Origin: Tenacibaculum pacificus
Lineage (GTDB): Bacteria; Bacteroidota; Bacteroidia; Flavobacteriales; Flavobacteriaceae
Reading direction: 5' to 3'
NCBI RefSeq assembly: GCF_027941775.1
Contig: NZ_CP115917.1
Span: 1,315,001-1,379,000, forward strand
DNA length: 64,000 nucleotides
Shown piece after piece: positions 1 to 14,240 of the stretch (its first letter is position 1; each line of letters begins with the position of its first letter). Below the pieces are notes generated by a model that was given only the letters and a program-made list of their open reading frames with translations, did no database searches and had not been told where the DNA came from. Made by a program: the position numbers and the translations under genes.

Positions 1-984
<984 letters not shown>

Positions 985-1490: not shown

Positions 1491-1587
1491 ATGTCTAGCC
1501 CTGATTGAAGCATTTGTTTGAGCTCTTTTTTATTTTTCTTTTGAAAAAATAAAAAAAGCGAGTGCGGAAAGCAGGAAATTGCTTCAA
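1491..1587 (+). repeat. Dispersed intergenic element, copy A (structured)
   Basis: About 97 bases shared with the inverted copy at 14151-14240. Order of parts: CTAGCCCTG, TTGAAGCA, GAGCTC, an A/T-rich hairpin, GCGAGTGCGGAAAGC, CAGG, TGCTTCAA. TTGAAGCA (1505-1512) is complementary to TGCTTCAA (1580-1587), and CCTG (1500-1503) to CAGG (1572-1575). The two pairings cross, so the fold would be a pseudoknot around the central hairpin. Similar sequences are, from memory, common between genes in Flavobacteriia. Confidence 0.65.
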
Positions 1588-1605: not shown

Positions 1606-3612
1606 TTAAATCACTCGTTCATCAGCTTTATAAGCACCACGCCTGTGTAAAATCCATTGTGCTTCATCCAATGGATTTACACCTTTATAATCTCGGATTG
1701 CACCTTGATTTTTAGGACAAGCATCATAACCGTAAAACTGCAAACGCAAACGTAATTTTCCGCTAGATATCGTATTTAACTTGATACTAAAATCCAACGA
1801 AGTAGCTACAGGAATTTTTCCTTTGAGACTAAAAACATCACCTGTAAATTTTGGCGTATCAAAAGTAGCTCTTCTAGTACTTAATTCAGATGCTACTTTT
1901 CCTAATAGCGCTTCATTCGCTTTTATTTCAAAACTTAAAATTGGCTCTAGTAAATGTGTACCTCCTTTTTTTAAACCTTGCATAATTCCCATAGGAGTTG
2001 CTAAATTAAAATCACCCGGGCGAGAATGGATATTATGATCCTCACCTTTTATTAAAGTTATTTTCACATCAGTAACCTCCCACCCTAAAATTCCTTGTGC
2101 CAATGCTTTTGGAATGGTACGTTCTATTTCATTTTGATATTTAATATGTACATCGTTTTGAGAAACTATAGAACTATAATTAATCCCCGAATTTAACGGA
2201 GCAGGTTCAATTAAAAAAGTCATAATTGCCCAACAAGGTTTTGGCATCCAATAACGAATATACCCTTCAGCCTTTTTACTAATCGTTTCTTTATAGACTA
2301 CCTGTGGCTCGGTAAAAGTTGCAACAATATCAAAACGTTCTTTTAAAACATGAGATAATATTTCAATTTGCATTTGTCCCATTAATAATAACTGTAATTC
2401 TTTTTCAGCACGAAACCATTTAAAATTTAAAGAAGGGTCTTCTCTATCTAATTGTTCTAAGGCTTTTGCTAAGTCATTATAATCCGCATTATTTTCAGGG
2501 ATAACCTCGACAGTAAGTACAGGAATATGTAATTGAGGAAGTATAGGAATTCCATCAGGACTTCCTAAAACATCGCCTGCTTTTGTTCCTAAAACACCTG
2601 TAATAACGCCAATATCACCAGCAGATAAGATAATGTTATCAACATACTTTGTTTCTGATAATTGCTTAGTCTGATTTATTTTAGTTTCTAATTGCTGTGT
2701 ATGATTATATACCGTAATTTTAGATGATAATTCTCCTGAAAACACTTTTACATGTGCCATCATACCAAAAACTTTATGATGTTCTAATTTAAAAACATAT
2801 GCCGAAAGGTCTTTTGTTTTATTTATTTTAGAAGTAGGGCAAAAAGCAATAAGTCCATCTAATAATTCTGTAACACCAATATTATTTTTTGCAATTCCTG
2901 TATAAATAGGCGTAATTTTAGTATCAATAGTTAATTTACGGATACTTTTCAAATACCTTTCATCAGTAATAACTTCTGAATTTAAAAAGGATTCTAACAG
3001 TTCCTCTTCAAAATCTAATAAATGTTCTATTGTTTTCTCTCTAACCTCATCAATTTCAGAATCTGGTTCATTAACTTCATTAATAGGATTAAAAACAGAT
3101 ACAATATTAGCATTCGGAAGACCATCATTTTCAGAAGCATATAAAACTACAGGTTTTGCTTTTAAATCGGTTTCCAACTGTTTAATTACCGATTCTGTAT
3201 CAGCTCCTTGTCTATCTATTTTATTGATAAAAATAAAAGTTGGTATTTGTAGTTCTTTTAATGAATCCCAAATATTCAATGTATGAGCTTGCACACCTTC
3301 TACAGCTGAAACAAGTAATATAACAGCATCAACCACACATAAAGCACGTTCTACTTCACTTGAAAAATCAACGTGCCCTGGTGTATCTATTAAATTTATT
3401 TTGGTATTTTTCCAATCAAACGACGTTGCTGCTGCTTTTATAGAAATACCACGTTCTTTTTCAATATCTAAGCTATCAGTACTTGTTGAACCTTTATCTA
3501 CACTTCCAAGAGTTCTAATTGCTCCTGAATTATATAAAAAATGTTCTGTTAAGGTTGTTTTACCTGCATCCACGTGCGCCAAAACTCCAATATTTATAGT
3601 TGGTTTATTCAT
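1606..3612 (-). CDS. Tet(M/Q)-like ribosomal protection GTPase (EF-G family)
   Basis: A 668-residue translational GTPase resembling ribosomal protection proteins more than housekeeping EF-G; Tet(M)/Tet(Q) are about 640-657 residues. The G domain shows AHVDAGKT (residues 12-19), DTPGH (76-80) and NKID (130-133), followed by EF-G-like domains II-V. Such proteins bind the ribosomal A site in place of EF-G. It is the last gene of the rtcB2 - prfH - TPR unit, about 70 bases after the corrected end of the TPR gene and with no promoter motif seen between. I infer a role in clearing or recycling ribosomes handled by PrfH/RtcB2. Tetracycline resistance is possible but is not shown by the sequence. ATG start at 3612. 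Confidence 0.8.
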   Translation of the reverse strand: MNKPTINIGVLAHVDAGKTTLTEHFLYNSGAIRTLGSVDKGSTSTDSLDIEKERGISIKAAATSFDWKNTKINLIDTPGHVDFSSEVERALCVVDAVILLVSAVEGVQAHTLNIWDSLKELQIPTFIFINKIDRQGADTESVIKQLETDLKAKPVVLYASENDGLPNANIVSVFNPINEVNEPDSEIDEVREKTIEHLLDFEEELLESFLNSEVITDERYLKSIRKLTIDTKITPIYTGIAKNNIGVTELLDGLIAFCPTSKINKTKDLSAYVFKLEHHKVFGMMAHVKVFSGELSSKITVYNHTQQLETKINQTKQLSETKYVDNIILSAGDIGVITGVLGTKAGDVLGSPDGIPILPQLHIPVLTVEVIPENNADYNDLAKALEQLDREDPSLNFKWFRAEKELQLLLMGQMQIEILSHVLKERFDIVATFTEPQVVYKETISKKAEGYIRYWMPKPCWAIMTFLIEPAPLNSGINYSSIVSQNDVHIKYQNEIERTIPKALAQGILGWEVTDVKITLIKGEDHNIHSRPGDFNLATPMGIMQGLKKGGTHLLEPILSFEIKANEALLGKVASELSTRRATFDTPKFTGDVFSLKGKIPVATSLDFSIKLNTISSGKLRLRLQFYGYDACPKNQGAIRDYKGVNPLDEAQWILHRRGAYKADERVI

Positions 3613-3754
3613 TAAATTTGATGTAATTTTTAAAAAGCACTTATTATTTTAGTTTCATAATACCTAAAACTATTTTTTAATTATTCCGATTGTGCTTCAT
3701 TTTTATCTTCTATAATTTTCTCTGTTATTTTTGATGTTTCTTTTTTAACAGATT

Positions 3755-4246
3755 TTATTTTCTTTTTTTAGGCATCTTATCTTTAATACGTTTTTTTTGT
3801 TCGGTAATTATTTCCATAAAAGCTGTATTAAAAGTATGCTCTTTAGCTTCTTTGATAAAGTACAATGCCTTTTTATACTTTTTTAATTTTTCATACAATA
3901 CTGATTTTTTGCTATATAAAACCGCCTTATCAGCACCTTTTACAGTTAACGCAAAATCTATAAAATCTTCAGCTTCTTTCATATCTTCATTCCATAATAA
4001 AGCATTTATAAAATGCTCATAGACTTCAAAAGCATTTATTTTAATCGCTAATACTTGTTTAAAATATAAAATACCTTCTGTATAATCATATAATTTTTCA
4101 CTATATACACGTCCCATTAACGTTAATGCCATTGTGTTTTCAGCATCATAAGACAAGGCATAATTTAAAGCCACTACGGTTTCTTCCGTATCGTAATGAA
4201 AAGAATCTAATGCTTTAAAAACGTAGTTATTTGGTACTGTTCCCAT
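3755..4246 (-). CDS. Tetratricopeptide-repeat protein
   Basis: 163 residues as read, all-helical with TPR-like pairs (for example YDYTEGILYFKQVLAI and KKYKKALYFIKEAKEH). It resembles a small flavobacterial TPR family with a basic, lysine-rich tail. The tail ends at MPKKRK just after a 7-A tract (3763-3769). Adding one A continues the frame through a Lys/Glu-rich stretch to a stop at 3681-3683, which looks like the true C-terminus. It sits between prfH and the ribosomal GTPase, so it is probably co-transcribed. No signal peptide; cytoplasmic. Its partner is unknown; a scaffold role is inference only. Confidence 0.7.
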   Translation of the reverse strand: MGTVPNNYVFKALDSFHYDTEETVVALNYALSYDAENTMALTLMGRVYSEKLYDYTEGILYFKQVLAIKINAFEVYEHFINALLWNEDMKEAEDFIDFALTVKGADKAVLYSKKSVLYEKLKKYKKALYFIKEAKEHTFNTAFMEIITEQKKRIKDKMPKKRK

Positions 4247-4320
4247 TTTATTTCTTATTTATGTTCATTCAAGTAAAAAATTCAATTGAAAAAATATCAC
4301 TCAAACGAACACTTATTTAA

Positions 4321-5011
4321 TTATTCTAATTGTTTTCGTAATTCAGTTTTTAATTGATTTCTTTTTGATTTAAAAGATGCTTCTTTTTTTGATTTTTAAA
4401 ATCAACACCTGCAAAGATACGCACAGGATTCCCTCTTTCTAAATCTAAATGATTTTTCCATGCGATTTTTACAGCAGATTTTAATTCAATTGTGCTATGC
4501 TCTTTAATTTTCTCTTTTAATCGTTCAATTGCTATTTTTTTATTTTGATGTTGTGAACGACTATCCATTACCAAAACCTGAATACCACTTGGTATATGTT
4601 TTGCTCTTATAGCAGAACTTACTTTGTTTACGTGTTGTCCACCTGCACCTGAACTTCTAATTGCTTGAAATTTAATTTCAGTATCAATAATTTTTTTTGC
4701 TGATACTCCTCTAATTCGTAACAACCAATAAACCAATTTTTACGTTTATGAAATTTTCTAATTGTAGATGTTCCAACCCATTGAATAGTTCCTAACCAAT
4801 CTTTTAAAAATACGGAAAGTTCTTTTCCTTTAATTTCGATACTTACTGATTGTACAGTACCGTTTTCAATACCATCCTCTTTATGAAGAATTTGATACGT
4901 ACATTTAGTACTCATCAACTCTTTTAAAAACATTTTTAATACTTTTGCAACTACCCATGCACATTCAGCAGGACCTTTTGCAGCAGTAAATTGTATTATT
5001 TTTGTGTCCAT
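4321..5011 (-). pseudogene. prfH: Peptide chain release factor H (PrfH), frame broken twice at A-tracts
   Basis: PrfH is a class-I release-factor-like protein that hydrolyses peptidyl-tRNA on ribosomes with cleaved 16S rRNA, so that the partner RtcB can reseal the rRNA. The first frame (5011-4628) carries the PrfH N-terminus ([25 protein letters not shown]). The second (to 4350) carries [12 protein letters not shown], with the catalytic GGQ, and SRSQHQNKK. They join if one A is added to the 8-A tract at 4691-4698, or by a -1 slip on A AAA AAA. A second one-A shortfall at the 7-A tract 4384-4390 cuts the tail; correcting it gives a basic tail (FKSKRNQLK) ending at 4321-4323. The ATG is one base after the rtcB2 stop, so translational coupling is likely. 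Programmed frameshift, pseudogene and sequencing error are all open. Confidence 0.85.
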
Positions 5012-5012
5012 A

Positions 5013-6404
5013 TTATTTATCCATTCTTACAATTTTCGGTGTAAATGTTCCTAACACCTCAACTAATTCTTGTTGATTATTCATTACTTTTTCAATATTT
5101 TTGTACGCCATCGGTGCTTCATCAACTCCGCCACCAATAAGACTCACTCCATTATTTTTCAACTGTTGCTTCACCTCGCTTTTTGTAAATTTCTCTTTAC
5201 ACTTTCTACGAGAAAACAAACGCCCTGCACCATGAGAAGCCGAATTTAAACTTTCACTATTTCCTAAACCTCTAACGATATAACCTGGTGCAGTCATCGA
5301 ACCAGGAATAATTCCTAATTGTCCTTTATTTGCAGGAGTAGCTCCTTTTCTATGCACAATTAATTCCTGTCCATTTATTTGTTCTTTCCATGCAAAATTA
5401 TGATGATTTTCAATTGTAGCAATCGCCTTTGCTCCTAACAACTTTGCGATACGCTTATGAATATTATCATGACACGCTTTCGCATAATCACCCGCTAAAT
5501 TCATTGCCAACCAATACTCTTGCCCATCGTGTGTATTTAAATCTAACCAAGCTAAATGTTGCACATTTTTTGGTAATGGACATTGCTTTGTGGCTAAATA
5601 TGTATAGTGTTTTGCGATATTTGCGCCTAAACCACGGCTTCCACTATGCGTTAATAAACCAACATATTCGCCAAGCGGTAAACCGAAATTATTTTTTTCA
5701 TCTGTAATTGTTACAATTCCAAATTCTACAAAATGATTTCCTCCTCCCGAAGTTCCTAATTGTTTGTATGCTTTATTTTTTAAGCGTTTTAAAAGCGGAA
5801 TATCCTGAAATTCTGAACGTTCAAATATTTCGTGATCATGTTTTGTATTATGAGTTTCATACATTCCGAATTTTGTATGTTCAGATAATATATTTTCTAA
5901 CTGATGTACTTTTCCTTTTAAGTACGAAGCCTTTACAGGATATACCGTTAAACACATTCTACAACCAATATCTACGCCAACGCCATACGGAATTACAGCA
6001 TTTTCTGTAGCTAAAACTCCACCGATAGGCAAACCATAACCAGCATGTGCATCGGGCATTAAAGCACCTTGTACAGCTATTGGTAATTTTAAAGCATCAT
6101 ATAATTGATATTTTGCAAGCTCATCAATTTCATTTTCACCGTAAATAGAAAAAGGCGCTCGGGTATTTTTTAGTTGATGAAATTTTACATCAACAGGTTT
6201 TATTAATCCTTCTACCACTTTTCCCCAAATTGCATTTCCTTGAAATTTTTCAGGCGATAAAAGCACCTCCTTAGCTTCTTCTAAAATACGTTCTTTCTTT
6301 TCTTTTTTACGATATCTATTTATTTGACCTAATGCAATGTTGATACTATTATTCTTTGGAAAGCCTAATTTTATAAGGTCTTTTCCTTTTAACTTATTTC
6401 CCAT
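5013..6404 (-). CDS. rtcB2: RtcB-type RNA ligase, PrfH-associated (RtcB2)
   Basis: 463-residue RtcB ligase, which joins 2',3'-cyclic phosphate and 5'-OH RNA ends using GTP and Mn2+. All family motifs are intact: DIGCRM (residues 145-150), GTSGGGNH (217-224), HSGSRG (253-258), ENHHNF (332-337), HRKGAT (351-356) and SHGAGR (390-395) with the guanylylated His391. The gene ends one base before prfH. The fused or adjacent RtcB2-PrfH pair is known to repair 16S rRNA cut in the decoding centre by ribotoxins. The 5' leader is about 360 bases and contains an intrinsic terminator (6523-6554), which suggests conditional expression. Confidence 0.92.
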   Translation of the reverse strand: MGNKLKGKDLIKLGFPKNNSINIALGQINRYRKKEKKERILEEAKEVLLSPEKFQGNAIWGKVVEGLIKPVDVKFHQLKNTRAPFSIYGENEIDELAKYQLYDALKLPIAVQGALMPDAHAGYGLPIGGVLATENAVIPYGVGVDIGCRMCLTVYPVKASYLKGKVHQLENILSEHTKFGMYETHNTKHDHEIFERSEFQDIPLLKRLKNKAYKQLGTSGGGNHFVEFGIVTITDEKNNFGLPLGEYVGLLTHSGSRGLGANIAKHYTYLATKQCPLPKNVQHLAWLDLNTHDGQEYWLAMNLAGDYAKACHDNIHKRIAKLLGAKAIATIENHHNFAWKEQINGQELIVHRKGATPANKGQLGIIPGSMTAPGYIVRGLGNSESLNSASHGAGRLFSRRKCKEKFTKSEVKQQLKNNGVSLIGGGVDEAPMAYKNIEKVMNNQQELVEVLGTFTPKIVRMDK

Positions 6405-6522
6405 TATTTAATTTTGAGATGTTTTTATTTAGAATTCAACTTTTGGTTGATTTCTTTAATAGTTTTCTATTTTTAATAGAAATATAAACTTCGAAAAATC
6501 TCTAGGAAATAAACTCCATAAA

Positions 6523-6554
6523 AAAAGTCCGAAATTTTTAAACTTCGGACTTTT
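6523..6554 (-). terminator. Intrinsic terminator inside the rtcB2 leader
   Basis: On the minus strand AAAAGTCCGAA pairs with TTCGGACTTTT, an 11-bp stem with a short AT loop, followed by a run of Ts. It lies between the promoter at 6768-6799 and the rtcB2 start. It must either end a short RNA of about 240 nt or act as an attenuator for rtcB2-prfH. Confidence 0.75.
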
Positions 6555-6574
6555 CATATATATAATAGTATTTG

Positions 6575-6664
6575 CTATTTATAACAGTGAAGAAAGTCGC
6601 GAAGTAAACAAGAAAAAGAACCTAGTTCTCTTTGTATGTTTTTATTTTTTGAATATTTAAACAT
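6575..6664 (-). CDS. Possible 29-residue leader peptide upstream of rtcB2
   Basis: ATG at 6664 and TAG at 6577-6575 on the minus strand. The reading frame begins MFKYSKNKN and ends CLLRDFLHCYK. It lies about 100 bases after the predicted transcription start and ends about 20 bases before the terminator stem. The codons for LLRDF overlap the segment that can pair with the 5' arm of the terminator. Coding status is uncertain: there is no homologue I recognise and the length alone is not significant. The claim rests on its place in the leader. Confidence 0.35.
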   Translation of the reverse strand: MFKYSKNKNIQRELGSFSCLLRDFLHCYK

Positions 6665-6767
6665 TGTACTTCGTTTTTTTAATATTAAAACCTCTCGTTG
6701 GTAAATCATTAGTTAACGATTCCTAAAAGTTTTATTTCAATATTTATTTTGTTGCATAATTGCGGTA

Positions 6768-6799
6768 CAAACTTATAATGATTTTTTGAATCACACAAA
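6768..6799 (-). promoter_or_regulatory. Promoter for the rtcB2-prfH unit
   Basis: Minus-strand TTTG (6799-6796), 20-base spacer, TAAGTTTG (6775-6768): a full match to the Bacteroidota consensus. The start of transcription is expected near 6762, giving a long leader before rtcB2. Confidence 0.6.
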
Positions 6800-6978
6800 T
6801 AAAAATAAATATTATTTACCTGTAAATCAACCAATTAAACACAAGTAAATTAAAATCAAACACTAGTTTCCCTCTCCACTTTTTGCAGATTATTTAATAG
6901 ACTGATACCTTGTTATGTATGTTTTTACTAGACTATTTTAAAAGAAGAAATTCAGGATAAAATTTTCCATAAAAAAAA

Positions 6979-7002
6979 CGTCCAAAAAATTAATTTTGGA
7001 CG
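6979..7002 (-). terminator. Terminator of the S24-like gene
   Basis: CGTCCAAAA and TTTTGGACG form a 9-bp stem. On the minus strand it is followed by eight Ts (6978-6971). It lies downstream of the small gene 7166-7462. Confidence 0.75.
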
Positions 7003-7165
7003 CTTTTACTATTATTTAAAAGTTATATACCTAAAACATCAACTTAAAAAGTCGCAGTTTAGCGCCCGATTTATGTGATTTGAATAAGTTCATAGGTTTA
7101 GTTTTTTTATTATTTTTATTTATAAAATATAAAAGAGCATTTTACTGCCCTGTTTTTTTAATGTT

Positions 7166-9867: not shown

Positions 9868-10887
9868 ATGGCTGCAAATAAAAATGCGCTTATCAGATAT
9901 AAAACAATTGACGAATGTTTACGAAACAATATGAAACGCTGGACACTAGTCGATTTAATTACCGCTTGCTCCGATGCTTTATACGAATATGAAAACAAAG
10001 ATGTATACGTAAGTAAACGAACTATTCAAGCAGATATTCAATTAATGCGAAGCGATAAATTAGGATACAACGCACCTATTGAAGTATATGAACGTAAATA
10101 TTATAGGTATGCAACTACAGATTATAGTATTAAAAATATTCCGATTACTGATACCGATGTAAAAATTATGAATGAAGCAATTCAGGTATTACGTCAATTT
10201 AAAGATTTTTCATTGTTTAAAGAAATGGACGGTGTTTTACAACGTTTAGAAGACTCTGTGTATGCTTCTCAAAAAACAAATAAAGCTATTATTCATTTAG
10301 AAAAAAACGAAAAATTAAAAGGTTTAAAATATATTGACCCTATTTATAATGCGATTCAAAATAAAAAAGCATTAAATATTACGTATAAATCATTTAAAGC
10401 TTTAACAGAAAGCAAAATGACTTTACATCCGCAATTATTAAAAGAATATAATAATCGTTGGTTTGTTTTATCGCTTTATAAAACAAAAAATATAACCTTA
10501 GCTCTCGATAGAATTTTAAATATTACCATTGCAGAAAATGACAGCTATAAAGATTTAAAAATTAATGGCGATACCTATTACAAAGATGTAATTGGTGTAA
10601 CAGTTTCAAATACCCGTGCACAACGTGTTCAATTTTGGGTCGATGCTATAAATGCACCTTATGTAATCACCAAACCTTTCCATAATAGCCAACGAATAAT
10701 TAAATATACCGAAGATGGCGGTGTTATATTTAATATTTTAGTTCAAATGAATTACGAATTAGAACGTTTAATTTTAGGATTTGGCGATGCTATTGAAGTT
10801 CATAAACCTATTTTTTTGCGCAAACGAATGATTCATAAATTAAAAAAGGCTAGTAATAATTATATCGAAAATAATTCTAGTTATTAG
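9868..10887 (+). CDS. WYL-domain transcriptional regulator
   Basis: 339 residues. An N-terminal winged helix-turn-helix (about 15-80; VSKRTIQADIQLMRS is the recognition region) is followed by a linker and a WYL domain (about 160-240: LNITYKSF, LHPQLLKEYNNRWFVL, LALDRILNI), then a WCX-like C-terminus. WYL proteins sense nucleic acids or nucleotides and often control defence, DNA-damage or RNA-repair genes. Its place opposite the two rtcB genes and ahead of a helicase makes it the best candidate for island control. A TGCGCA palindrome lies at 9103-9121. The second-ranked reading is that it controls only the helicase. Confidence 0.85.
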   Translation: MAANKNALIRYKTIDECLRNNMKRWTLVDLITACSDALYEYENKDVYVSKRTIQADIQLMRSDKLGYNAPIEVYERKYYRYATTDYSIKNIPITDTDVKIMNEAIQVLRQFKDFSLFKEMDGVLQRLEDSVYASQKTNKAIIHLEKNEKLKGLKYIDPIYNAIQNKKALNITYKSFKALTESKMTLHPQLLKEYNNRWFVLSLYKTKNITLALDRILNITIAENDSYKDLKINGDTYYKDVIGVTVSNTRAQRVQFWVDAINAPYVITKPFHNSQRIIKYTEDGGVIFNILVQMNYELERLILGFGDAIEVHKPIFLRKRMIHKLKKASNNYIENNSSY

Positions 10888-14150: not shown

Positions 14151-14240
14151 TTGAAGCAATTTCCCGCTTTCCGCACTCGCTTTTTTTTGAAGAAAAATCA
14201 AAAAAAGAGCTCAAACAGATGCTTCAATCGGGGCTAGGCA
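14151..14240 (-). repeat. Dispersed intergenic element, copy B (inverted relative to copy A)
   Basis: Reverse complement of the element at 1491-1587. The two paired regions are kept: TTGAAGCA (14151-14158) with TGCTTCAA (14220-14227), and CCCG (14163-14166) with CGGG (14229-14232). Where copy A has a T-A pair in the second helix, copy B has C-G, a compensatory change that supports the crossing pairing. Confidence 0.65.

Follow-up and report, generated by a model that had tools for sequence, protein, structure and literature searches.

A predicted ribosome-mediated attenuator in front of rtcB2-prfH in Tenacibaculum pacificus and its relatives

A leader with three competing pairings precedes rtcB2

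PrfH and RtcB2 have been reported to release ribosomes that colicin E3 has cut in the decoding centre, and to reseal them (PMC9223846), and translational coupling of the two genes is the only control mentioned in the portions of the main RtcB2-PrfH papers drawn on here (PMC1586002, PMC9223846). The question raised by a 64,000-nt stretch of the Tenacibaculum pacificus genome (hereafter the window; contig NZ_CP115917.1, positions 1,315,001 to 1,379,000) is whether this pair might also be controlled by a leader RNA that responds to translation itself. A sequence-only reading of the window had interpreted the region upstream of rtcB2 as the attenuator of a ribosome-rescue operon, and the comparisons described below support that interpretation. 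Our search of the literature on PrfH with RtcB and on rtcB leader-peptide attenuation returned no title on a flavobacterial leader.

The first gene behind the leader is rtcB2 (5013-6404, minus strand; RtcB, 463 aa, Pfam PF01139), followed on the same strand by prfH (4350-5011), which is present as two overlapping frames (4628-5011 and 4350-4736) with the RF-1 domain in the second, and by the third gene of the unit, for a protein with a weak TPR match (3755-4246, minus strand). The two prfH frames part at a run of A bases, and prfH at locus L307 is one frame of 230 aa; the split in the window may reflect decay, slippage or an assembly error. Downstream of the TPR gene we also saw an EF-G-like GTPase gene (1606-3612, minus strand), no homologue of which was found in the retrieved flanks behind the 96 other leaders searched.

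A promoter had been proposed at 6799-6768 (minus strand), and every one of its elements is found exactly there: TTTG at 6799-6796, a 20-nt spacer, and TAAGTTTG, of the TANNTTTG type, at 6775-6768, which together fit the Bacteroidota promoter consensus, with transcription expected to start near 6762. Next on this strand comes segment 1 (CGAAGTA, 6673-6667), directly 5' of the start of a small upstream ORF (uORF) of 29 codons (MFKYSKNKNIQRELGSFSCLLRDFLHCYK; 6664-6575, ATG 6664-6662, TAG 6577-6575), which an in-frame ATG further upstream would extend to 44 codons. Within the uORF lies segment 2 (TACTTCG-C-GACTTTC, 6606-6592), whose partner can be either segment 1 or segment 3 (GAAAAGTCCGAAG, 6555-6543); segment 3 is the 5' arm of an intrinsic terminator and can pair instead with segment 4 (TTCGGACTTTT, arm 6533-6523, with a T-run to 6520). 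The same segments had been named in the sequence-only reading, at coordinates that proved to be 2-3 bases off (6676-6670, 6608-6594 and 6557-6545 for segments 1 to 3). Calculated energies are -12.7 (1:2), -14.4 (2:3) and -15.8 (3:4) kcal/mol. At the level of sequence, 6799-6520 thereby combines a promoter, a leader RNA and an intrinsic terminator before structural genes, as an attenuator would. Ranked by antiterminator duplex energy, it is third of 41 terminator-like sites in the window; within the window alone the leader is notable, not unique, and it is the relatives that take it far beyond chance.

The leader is kept with rtcB2 across the order

Of 59 near genomes, the window's own among them, 18 have RtcB2, and 16 of these have a similarly built leader no more than 1.5 kb upstream of rtcB2. 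A covariance model (R1) built from those 16 leaders gave 18 matches in the 59 genomes, one per genome, at 104-180 bits (16 of the 18 had built the model), with the next best match at 44.9 bits. The two extra leaders were in G035, 1.65 kb upstream of rtcB2, and in G004, 112 nt short of the contig end; G038 had no R1 leader although it is an rtcB2 genome. In total 17 of the 18 rtcB2 genomes near the window carry an R1 leader, 16 of these leaders being model input.

We then have an order-level sample of 395 genomes, 88 of them with RtcB2 at E<=1e-100. R1 matched at 72 bits or more 82 times in this sample, 76 times outside the model, and a strong single leader stood upstream of the operon in 81 of the 88 rtcB2 genomes (75 not in the model). 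The single exception among the 82 strong leaders is an orphan leader without rtcB2 (G348, locus L066). Under strict filters no R1 match at E<=0.01 was found in six of the 88 rtcB2 genomes (G038, G222, G252, G255, G277 and G420); for G255, a second model (R2), built from 98 leaders, gave a 50-bit match (L239) on apparently the same contig. In G368 (L078), the one genome of the 88 whose rtcB2 has an in-frame TGA, the leader is decayed (49.8 bits) and its uORF ends before segment 2, and in three genomes without RtcB2 (G347, G363 and G197) a leader of 50-61 bits precedes a TPR gene, with rtcB1 further on in G363 and G197. The R1 matches at 46.6 bits or below that were inspected (L070-L073) were plain terminators at gene ends and were rejected. 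R2 scored 65 bits or more in 57 of 80 named loci, among them loci from Tenacibaculum, Polaribacter, Flavobacterium, Aquimarina, Myroides, Chryseobacterium, Epilithonimonas, Kaistella and one Sphingobacterium; this named-locus set overlaps the first leader set, 9 of 59 being identical in leader sequence. The laboratory strain F. pectinovorum DSM 6368 (L212) is one example of a carrier.

Behind the 98 leaders, rtcB2 is found in 93 cases, 93-1652 nt away, and where other genes intervene before rtcB2 the leader remains in front; in these 93 loci a prfH match follows rtcB2 in 90 and a TPR homologue follows in 85. The TPR gene can itself be the first gene, behind an R1 leader in L067, L068 and L069 and behind another type of leader (leader 0, see below) in L289, all of them without rtcB2. 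The sequence-only reading had suggested asking of related genomes whether the pairings and the uORF are kept; they are, and the putative attenuation layout it described is retained across genera and families and travels with rtcB2-prfH.

Beyond the order, two of 10 class-level loci (L182 and L183, from f22 genomes) showed a unit that is clearly analogous, and these were also the clear cases among 23 RtcB2 upstream regions outside the leader set. Their rtcB2 leaders are unrelated in sequence to those above and have the same plan, with antiterminators of -17.8 and -18.8 kcal/mol; the uORF of L182, placed by eye, is MLKQKETYRFELLNSDIRFMPWFFS with a TGA stop. The scan of those 23 regions also flagged L185 (-113, GC-rich), L186 (-286) and L076 (-1759 and -1606) as candidates.

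The three pairings covary

All three pairings proposed for the window covary across 98 leaders aligned to R1, a model that encodes 1:2 and 3:4 and not 2:3. For the 2:3 helix 92.9% of cells were paired, with 63 double-change cells (counts that, because the sequences are related, are not independent events) versus 24.1 in shuffles, none of 500 shuffles being as high, and shifting the partner by one base lowered pairing to 62% or less. Helices 1:2 and 3:4 together had 95.1% of cells paired (90.7% and 98.0%, respectively) and 101 double-change cells, counted in the same related leaders, versus 30.8 shuffled (0 of 500 as high). Single columns illustrate this, e.g., 58/174 in 1:2 has four pair types (CG 52, AU 24, UG 13, UA 8), 183/235 and 184/234 in 2:3 have GC 71 and AU 24, and UA 43 and CG 34, respectively, and in 3:4 235/263 has CG 74 and UA 24 and 234/264 has AU 48 and GC 31. 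Two bases of segment 3 change with both segment 2 and segment 4, in four fully matching combinations (segments 2/3/4 GT/AC/GT in 36 leaders, GC/GC/GC in 18, AC/GT/AC in 9 and AT/AT/AT in 6), with 7 more leaders matching with one G-U; in the remaining leaders there are gaps or further G-U pairs, or one helix or both contain a mismatch. The covariation in 98 leaders is that of mutually exclusive antiterminator and anti-antiterminator pairings.

Duplex energies agree with the alignment. Segment 2 paired with its native segment 3 at -12.9 versus a cross-lineage mean of -8.6 kcal/mol, and the native duplex was the better one in all 96 leaders tested; L142 and L077, in which segment 2 was not located, were left out. 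Mean fold energies were -15.1 kcal/mol for 1:2 (96 leaders) and -11.9 and -16.8 kcal/mol for 2:3 and 3:4 (98 leaders). A T-run of at least 4 ends the terminator in 98 of 98 leaders, 74 of 98 have a TANNTTTG-like site no further than 150 nt upstream of segment 1, and the promoter blocks TTGTGTAATTC and TTTGCATCGCAATTA are conserved in an alignment of 18 inter-regions. Some outer pairs often fail (1:2 column 59/173 in 61 of 98; 2:3 column 187/229 in 36, with 36 gaps), and segment 1 is not clear in the rtcB1/TPR-type leaders.

The position and length of the uORF, not its peptide, appear to be kept

The small ORF noted over segment 2 in the window recurs, as a predicted ORF of 24-29 codons overlapping the switch, in 97 of 98 leaders, with an ATG start in 95 and GTG in 2. 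Where both could be placed (95 leaders), the distance between the first base of segment 1 and the uORF start is 7-10 nt in 89; from the start of segment 2 to the uORF stop it is 21 nt in 83 of 97 (27 nt in the window). The N-terminal part differs between lineages, and the LR(D/G) over segment 2 is a consequence of the RNA sequence; in L080, L142 and L192 segment 2 is read in another frame with a stop still nearby, which suggests that what is kept is where the uORF lies and how long it is, and not the peptide. Codon-position entropy of the uORFs gave no clear sign of coding constraint.

The stop codon is TAG in 92 of the 97 uORFs, TAA in 5 and TGA in none, while TAG ends 56 of 514 long ORFs (11%) of the same material; we give no probability for this excess, the leaders being related. 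TAG is described as read by RF1 alone (PMC1586002). A script placed 59 uORFs in 61 named-locus leaders (one or two perhaps wrongly), ending in TAG (44), TAA (15) and TGA (0), and the 50 of these not identical to the first leader set gave TAG 35, TAA 15 and TGA 0. The TAG preference is thus weaker there; Aquimarina, for example, uses TAA. Several genus relatives have a second mini-ORF (MKSPKL) that starts in segment 3; we discarded it, as many other leaders are without its ATG.

A probable sensor of general elongation failure

We consider it very probable that 6799-6520 (minus strand) acts as a ribosome-mediated transcription attenuator of the rtcB2-prfH-TPR operon that senses general elongation failure. 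The predicted parts are in place, i.e., a promoter-like site, a uORF of 24-29 codons, covarying exclusive pairings and an intrinsic terminator before rtcB2; from them we infer that the leader is transcribed and the uORF translated, and the direction of the response. With no ribosome on the leader, 1:2 would form and leave segment 3 free for segment 4, and transcription would stop. Given the usual ribosome footprint, a ribosome at the uORF stop would cover the 3' part of segment 2, so that one finishing the uORF would likewise allow 3:4 and termination. A ribosome stalled early in the uORF would keep segment 1 off segment 2, leaving segment 2 free to form 2:3; the terminator would then be lost and the ribosome-repair genes made. 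The signal would be any elongation failure (cleaved 16S rRNA, damaged tRNA, ribosome-binding drugs) and not shortage of one amino acid, and ribosomes cut by colicin E3 should stall in the uORF, an order of events that we deduce. If true, ribosome damage would be linked through the ribosome's own behaviour to its repair genes across much of the order, which would show how the RtcB2-PrfH pair can stay low until needed.

Control by a protein or small ligand acting on terminator and antiterminator (an RNA-binding protein or riboswitch), with the uORF incidental, would also account for well-kept pairings, and an apical hairpin inside the 1:2 loop is among the folds listed. We regard this as improbable: the length, start and stop position of the uORF are kept while its peptide changes and the segment 2 frame can shift, none of the 97 plus 59 uORFs stops in TGA, and Rfam gave no family at its gathering score over 6400-7120, where the three sub-threshold matches over the terminator were MicC (26.9 of 90 bits), HrrF (23.6 of 77) and Thr_leader (23.4 of 55).

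The trp and his attenuators use the same 1:2, 2:3 and 3:4 logic as here. The rtcB2 uORF might accordingly be thought to sense the charging of one or a few tRNAs, and leader-peptide attenuation has been reported for amino-acid operons of a flavobacterium (PMC9723704), yet the listed uORF peptides contain no run of codons for one amino acid, the N-terminal peptide differs between genera, and the downstream genes are for RNA repair, not biosynthesis. Amino-acid sensing, for want of control codons, was rejected as very unlikely. A uORF with no one-amino-acid run and a variable N-terminal part would therefore respond to elongation trouble in general. Compared with long ORFs, the uORF set is enriched in R, F, S and H, which is partly forced by segment 2. 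The idea that the uORFs sample unusually many amino acids was rejected: only 4 of 16 peptides had P<0.05 (two tRNA-array uORF A peptides, 0.005 and 0.011, and rtcB2 leaders L005, 0.008, and L010, 0.047), the window uORF scoring 0.52.

An independent small RNA gene at 6762-6520, merely positioned before rtcB2, would have its own promoter-like site and terminator and would suit the orphan leader of G348, but it is hardly credible given that 81 of 82 strong order leaders are upstream of rtcB2 and that a free RNA gives no reason for a conserved 2:3 pairing.

Comparison with known leaders

The closest known case to the general elongation sensor proposed here is the PA5471.1 leader of armZ (PA5471, RtcB-like) and prfH (PA5470) in Pseudomonas aeruginosa, a species named in the legend of an RFH alignment (PMC1586002). 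Full translation of PA5471.1 is reported to give the 3:4 terminator and a stalled ribosome to abolish it, and ribosome-targeting drugs or stalling to cause read-through (PMC12057347, PMC13041342). Both systems have a leader peptide and a 3:4 terminator before an RtcB-like gene adjoining prfH, an arrangement found here with rtcB2 behind 93 of 98 leaders and prfH in 90 of 93. Pseudomonas belongs to another phylum, and the likeness is one of layout. Unlike here, Pseudomonas ArmZ drives mexXY, and codons Q3 and F4 of PA5471.1 matter for the cca effect; the flavobacterial uORF, for its part, usually stops at TAG, and in this genus a second unit comes before it. Since the same logic is reported for the Pseudomonas pair, the principle is not new. 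As far as our literature search reaches, what is new is the order-wide sequence family, the covariation of three helices and the fixed stop distance with TAG, as are the second unit in series and the connection with RNA-ligase and tRNA-array operons.

The bmrB leader of bmrCD in Bacillus subtilis is described as a generic elongation sensor with a translated leader ORF (PMC4191407), with a predicted terminator, antiterminator and anti-antiterminator as here; unlike here, it controls a drug transporter and its terminator is inside the 53-codon leader ORF (PMC4191407). In Anabaena a tRNA array (the trn operon) and rtcB are reported to be co-induced by translational stress under the repressor TrcR (PMC10272220), a protein repressor, whereas the flavobacterial relatives have tandem attenuator-like units before tRNA arrays.

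A second unit upstream, and tandem units before other operons

Upstream of the rtcB2 leader we found a second attenuator-like unit (leader 0, 7119-6980, minus strand), with the uORF MNLFKSHKSGAKLRLFKLMF-TAG and then a terminator AAAAGCGTCC...GGACGTTTTT from 7007; a stretch of leader 0 pairs with the 5' arm of this GCGTCC terminator at -14.0 kcal/mol. A covariance model of leader 0 (R3) scored 129.9 bits at 7119-6980, this copy being in the model, and gave 16 matches of at least 89 bits in the 59 genomes, most of them used to build it. Leader 0 precedes the rtcB2 leader in 14 of the 16; in G009 it is directly before a TPR gene, and G029 has a decayed copy. In 23 aligned copies its uORF stops are TAG 18, TAA 3 and TGA 2. 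Between leader 0 and the rtcB2 leader many relatives have a small hairpin and then CGGACAGG, degenerate in the window (about 6889-6866, minus strand); the stretch matched no Rfam family in related loci.

Similar tandem units precede an Rnl2-like RNA ligase in G106 and G012. At locus level, L291 (oriented 3671-5251) and L308 (716-2297) show the tandem build in front of a gene for an Rnl2-type RNA ligase (PF09414, PF18043); L291 also has nearby tRNA genes and, upstream, two genes for RlaP, an RNA repair nucleotidyltransferase. With the G003 leader as query we obtained 11 strong places (own included) in 97 genus genomes, each with 5-13 tRNA genes behind it in the retrieved flank, 7 of them having the GGACAG stretch. 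The exact GGACAGG with a second promoter was found at 9 places in 7 of 59 genomes. Tandem units stand directly before arrays of 5-17 tRNA genes in L286, L290, L306, L307 and L311-L321, with terminators GCGTCC and GCATCTC; in L311-L321 there is a uORF A of 32-38 codons in 10 of 11 loci and a uORF B of 41-43 codons in all 11. TAG ends only 2 of 21 uORFs of tRNA-array units and is thus not a general trait of such leaders. Band_7/SPFH (slipin-like) genes follow the tRNA arrays in L290 and L307.

We lean towards the view, held with far less assurance than that on the rtcB2 leader, that the genus shares a module of two serial attenuators, with hairpin-GGACAGG and a second promoter between them, as a translation-failure sensor for an RNA-damage regulon. 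Its members, on the same cautious footing, would be rtcB2-prfH, TPR genes, the Rnl2-type RNA ligase and spare tRNA arrays replacing cleaved tRNAs; the tandem units before tRNA arrays make the spare-tRNA idea testable.

Other observations in the window

Just upstream of rtcB1 in the window (9125-9103, minus strand), and of a second RtcB2 group, we noted by eye an inverted repeat like TACGCA-N7-TGCGTA (loci L159-L165, L021, L082 and L186), which may be an operator serving some other control. The window has a WYL regulator gene (9868-10887) next to rtcB1, and L067 has one next to its leader. The window further contains two Flavo-1 RNA motifs (1493-1582, plus strand, and 14156-14239, minus strand) and the 5' part of a 16S rRNA gene (1-984, minus strand).
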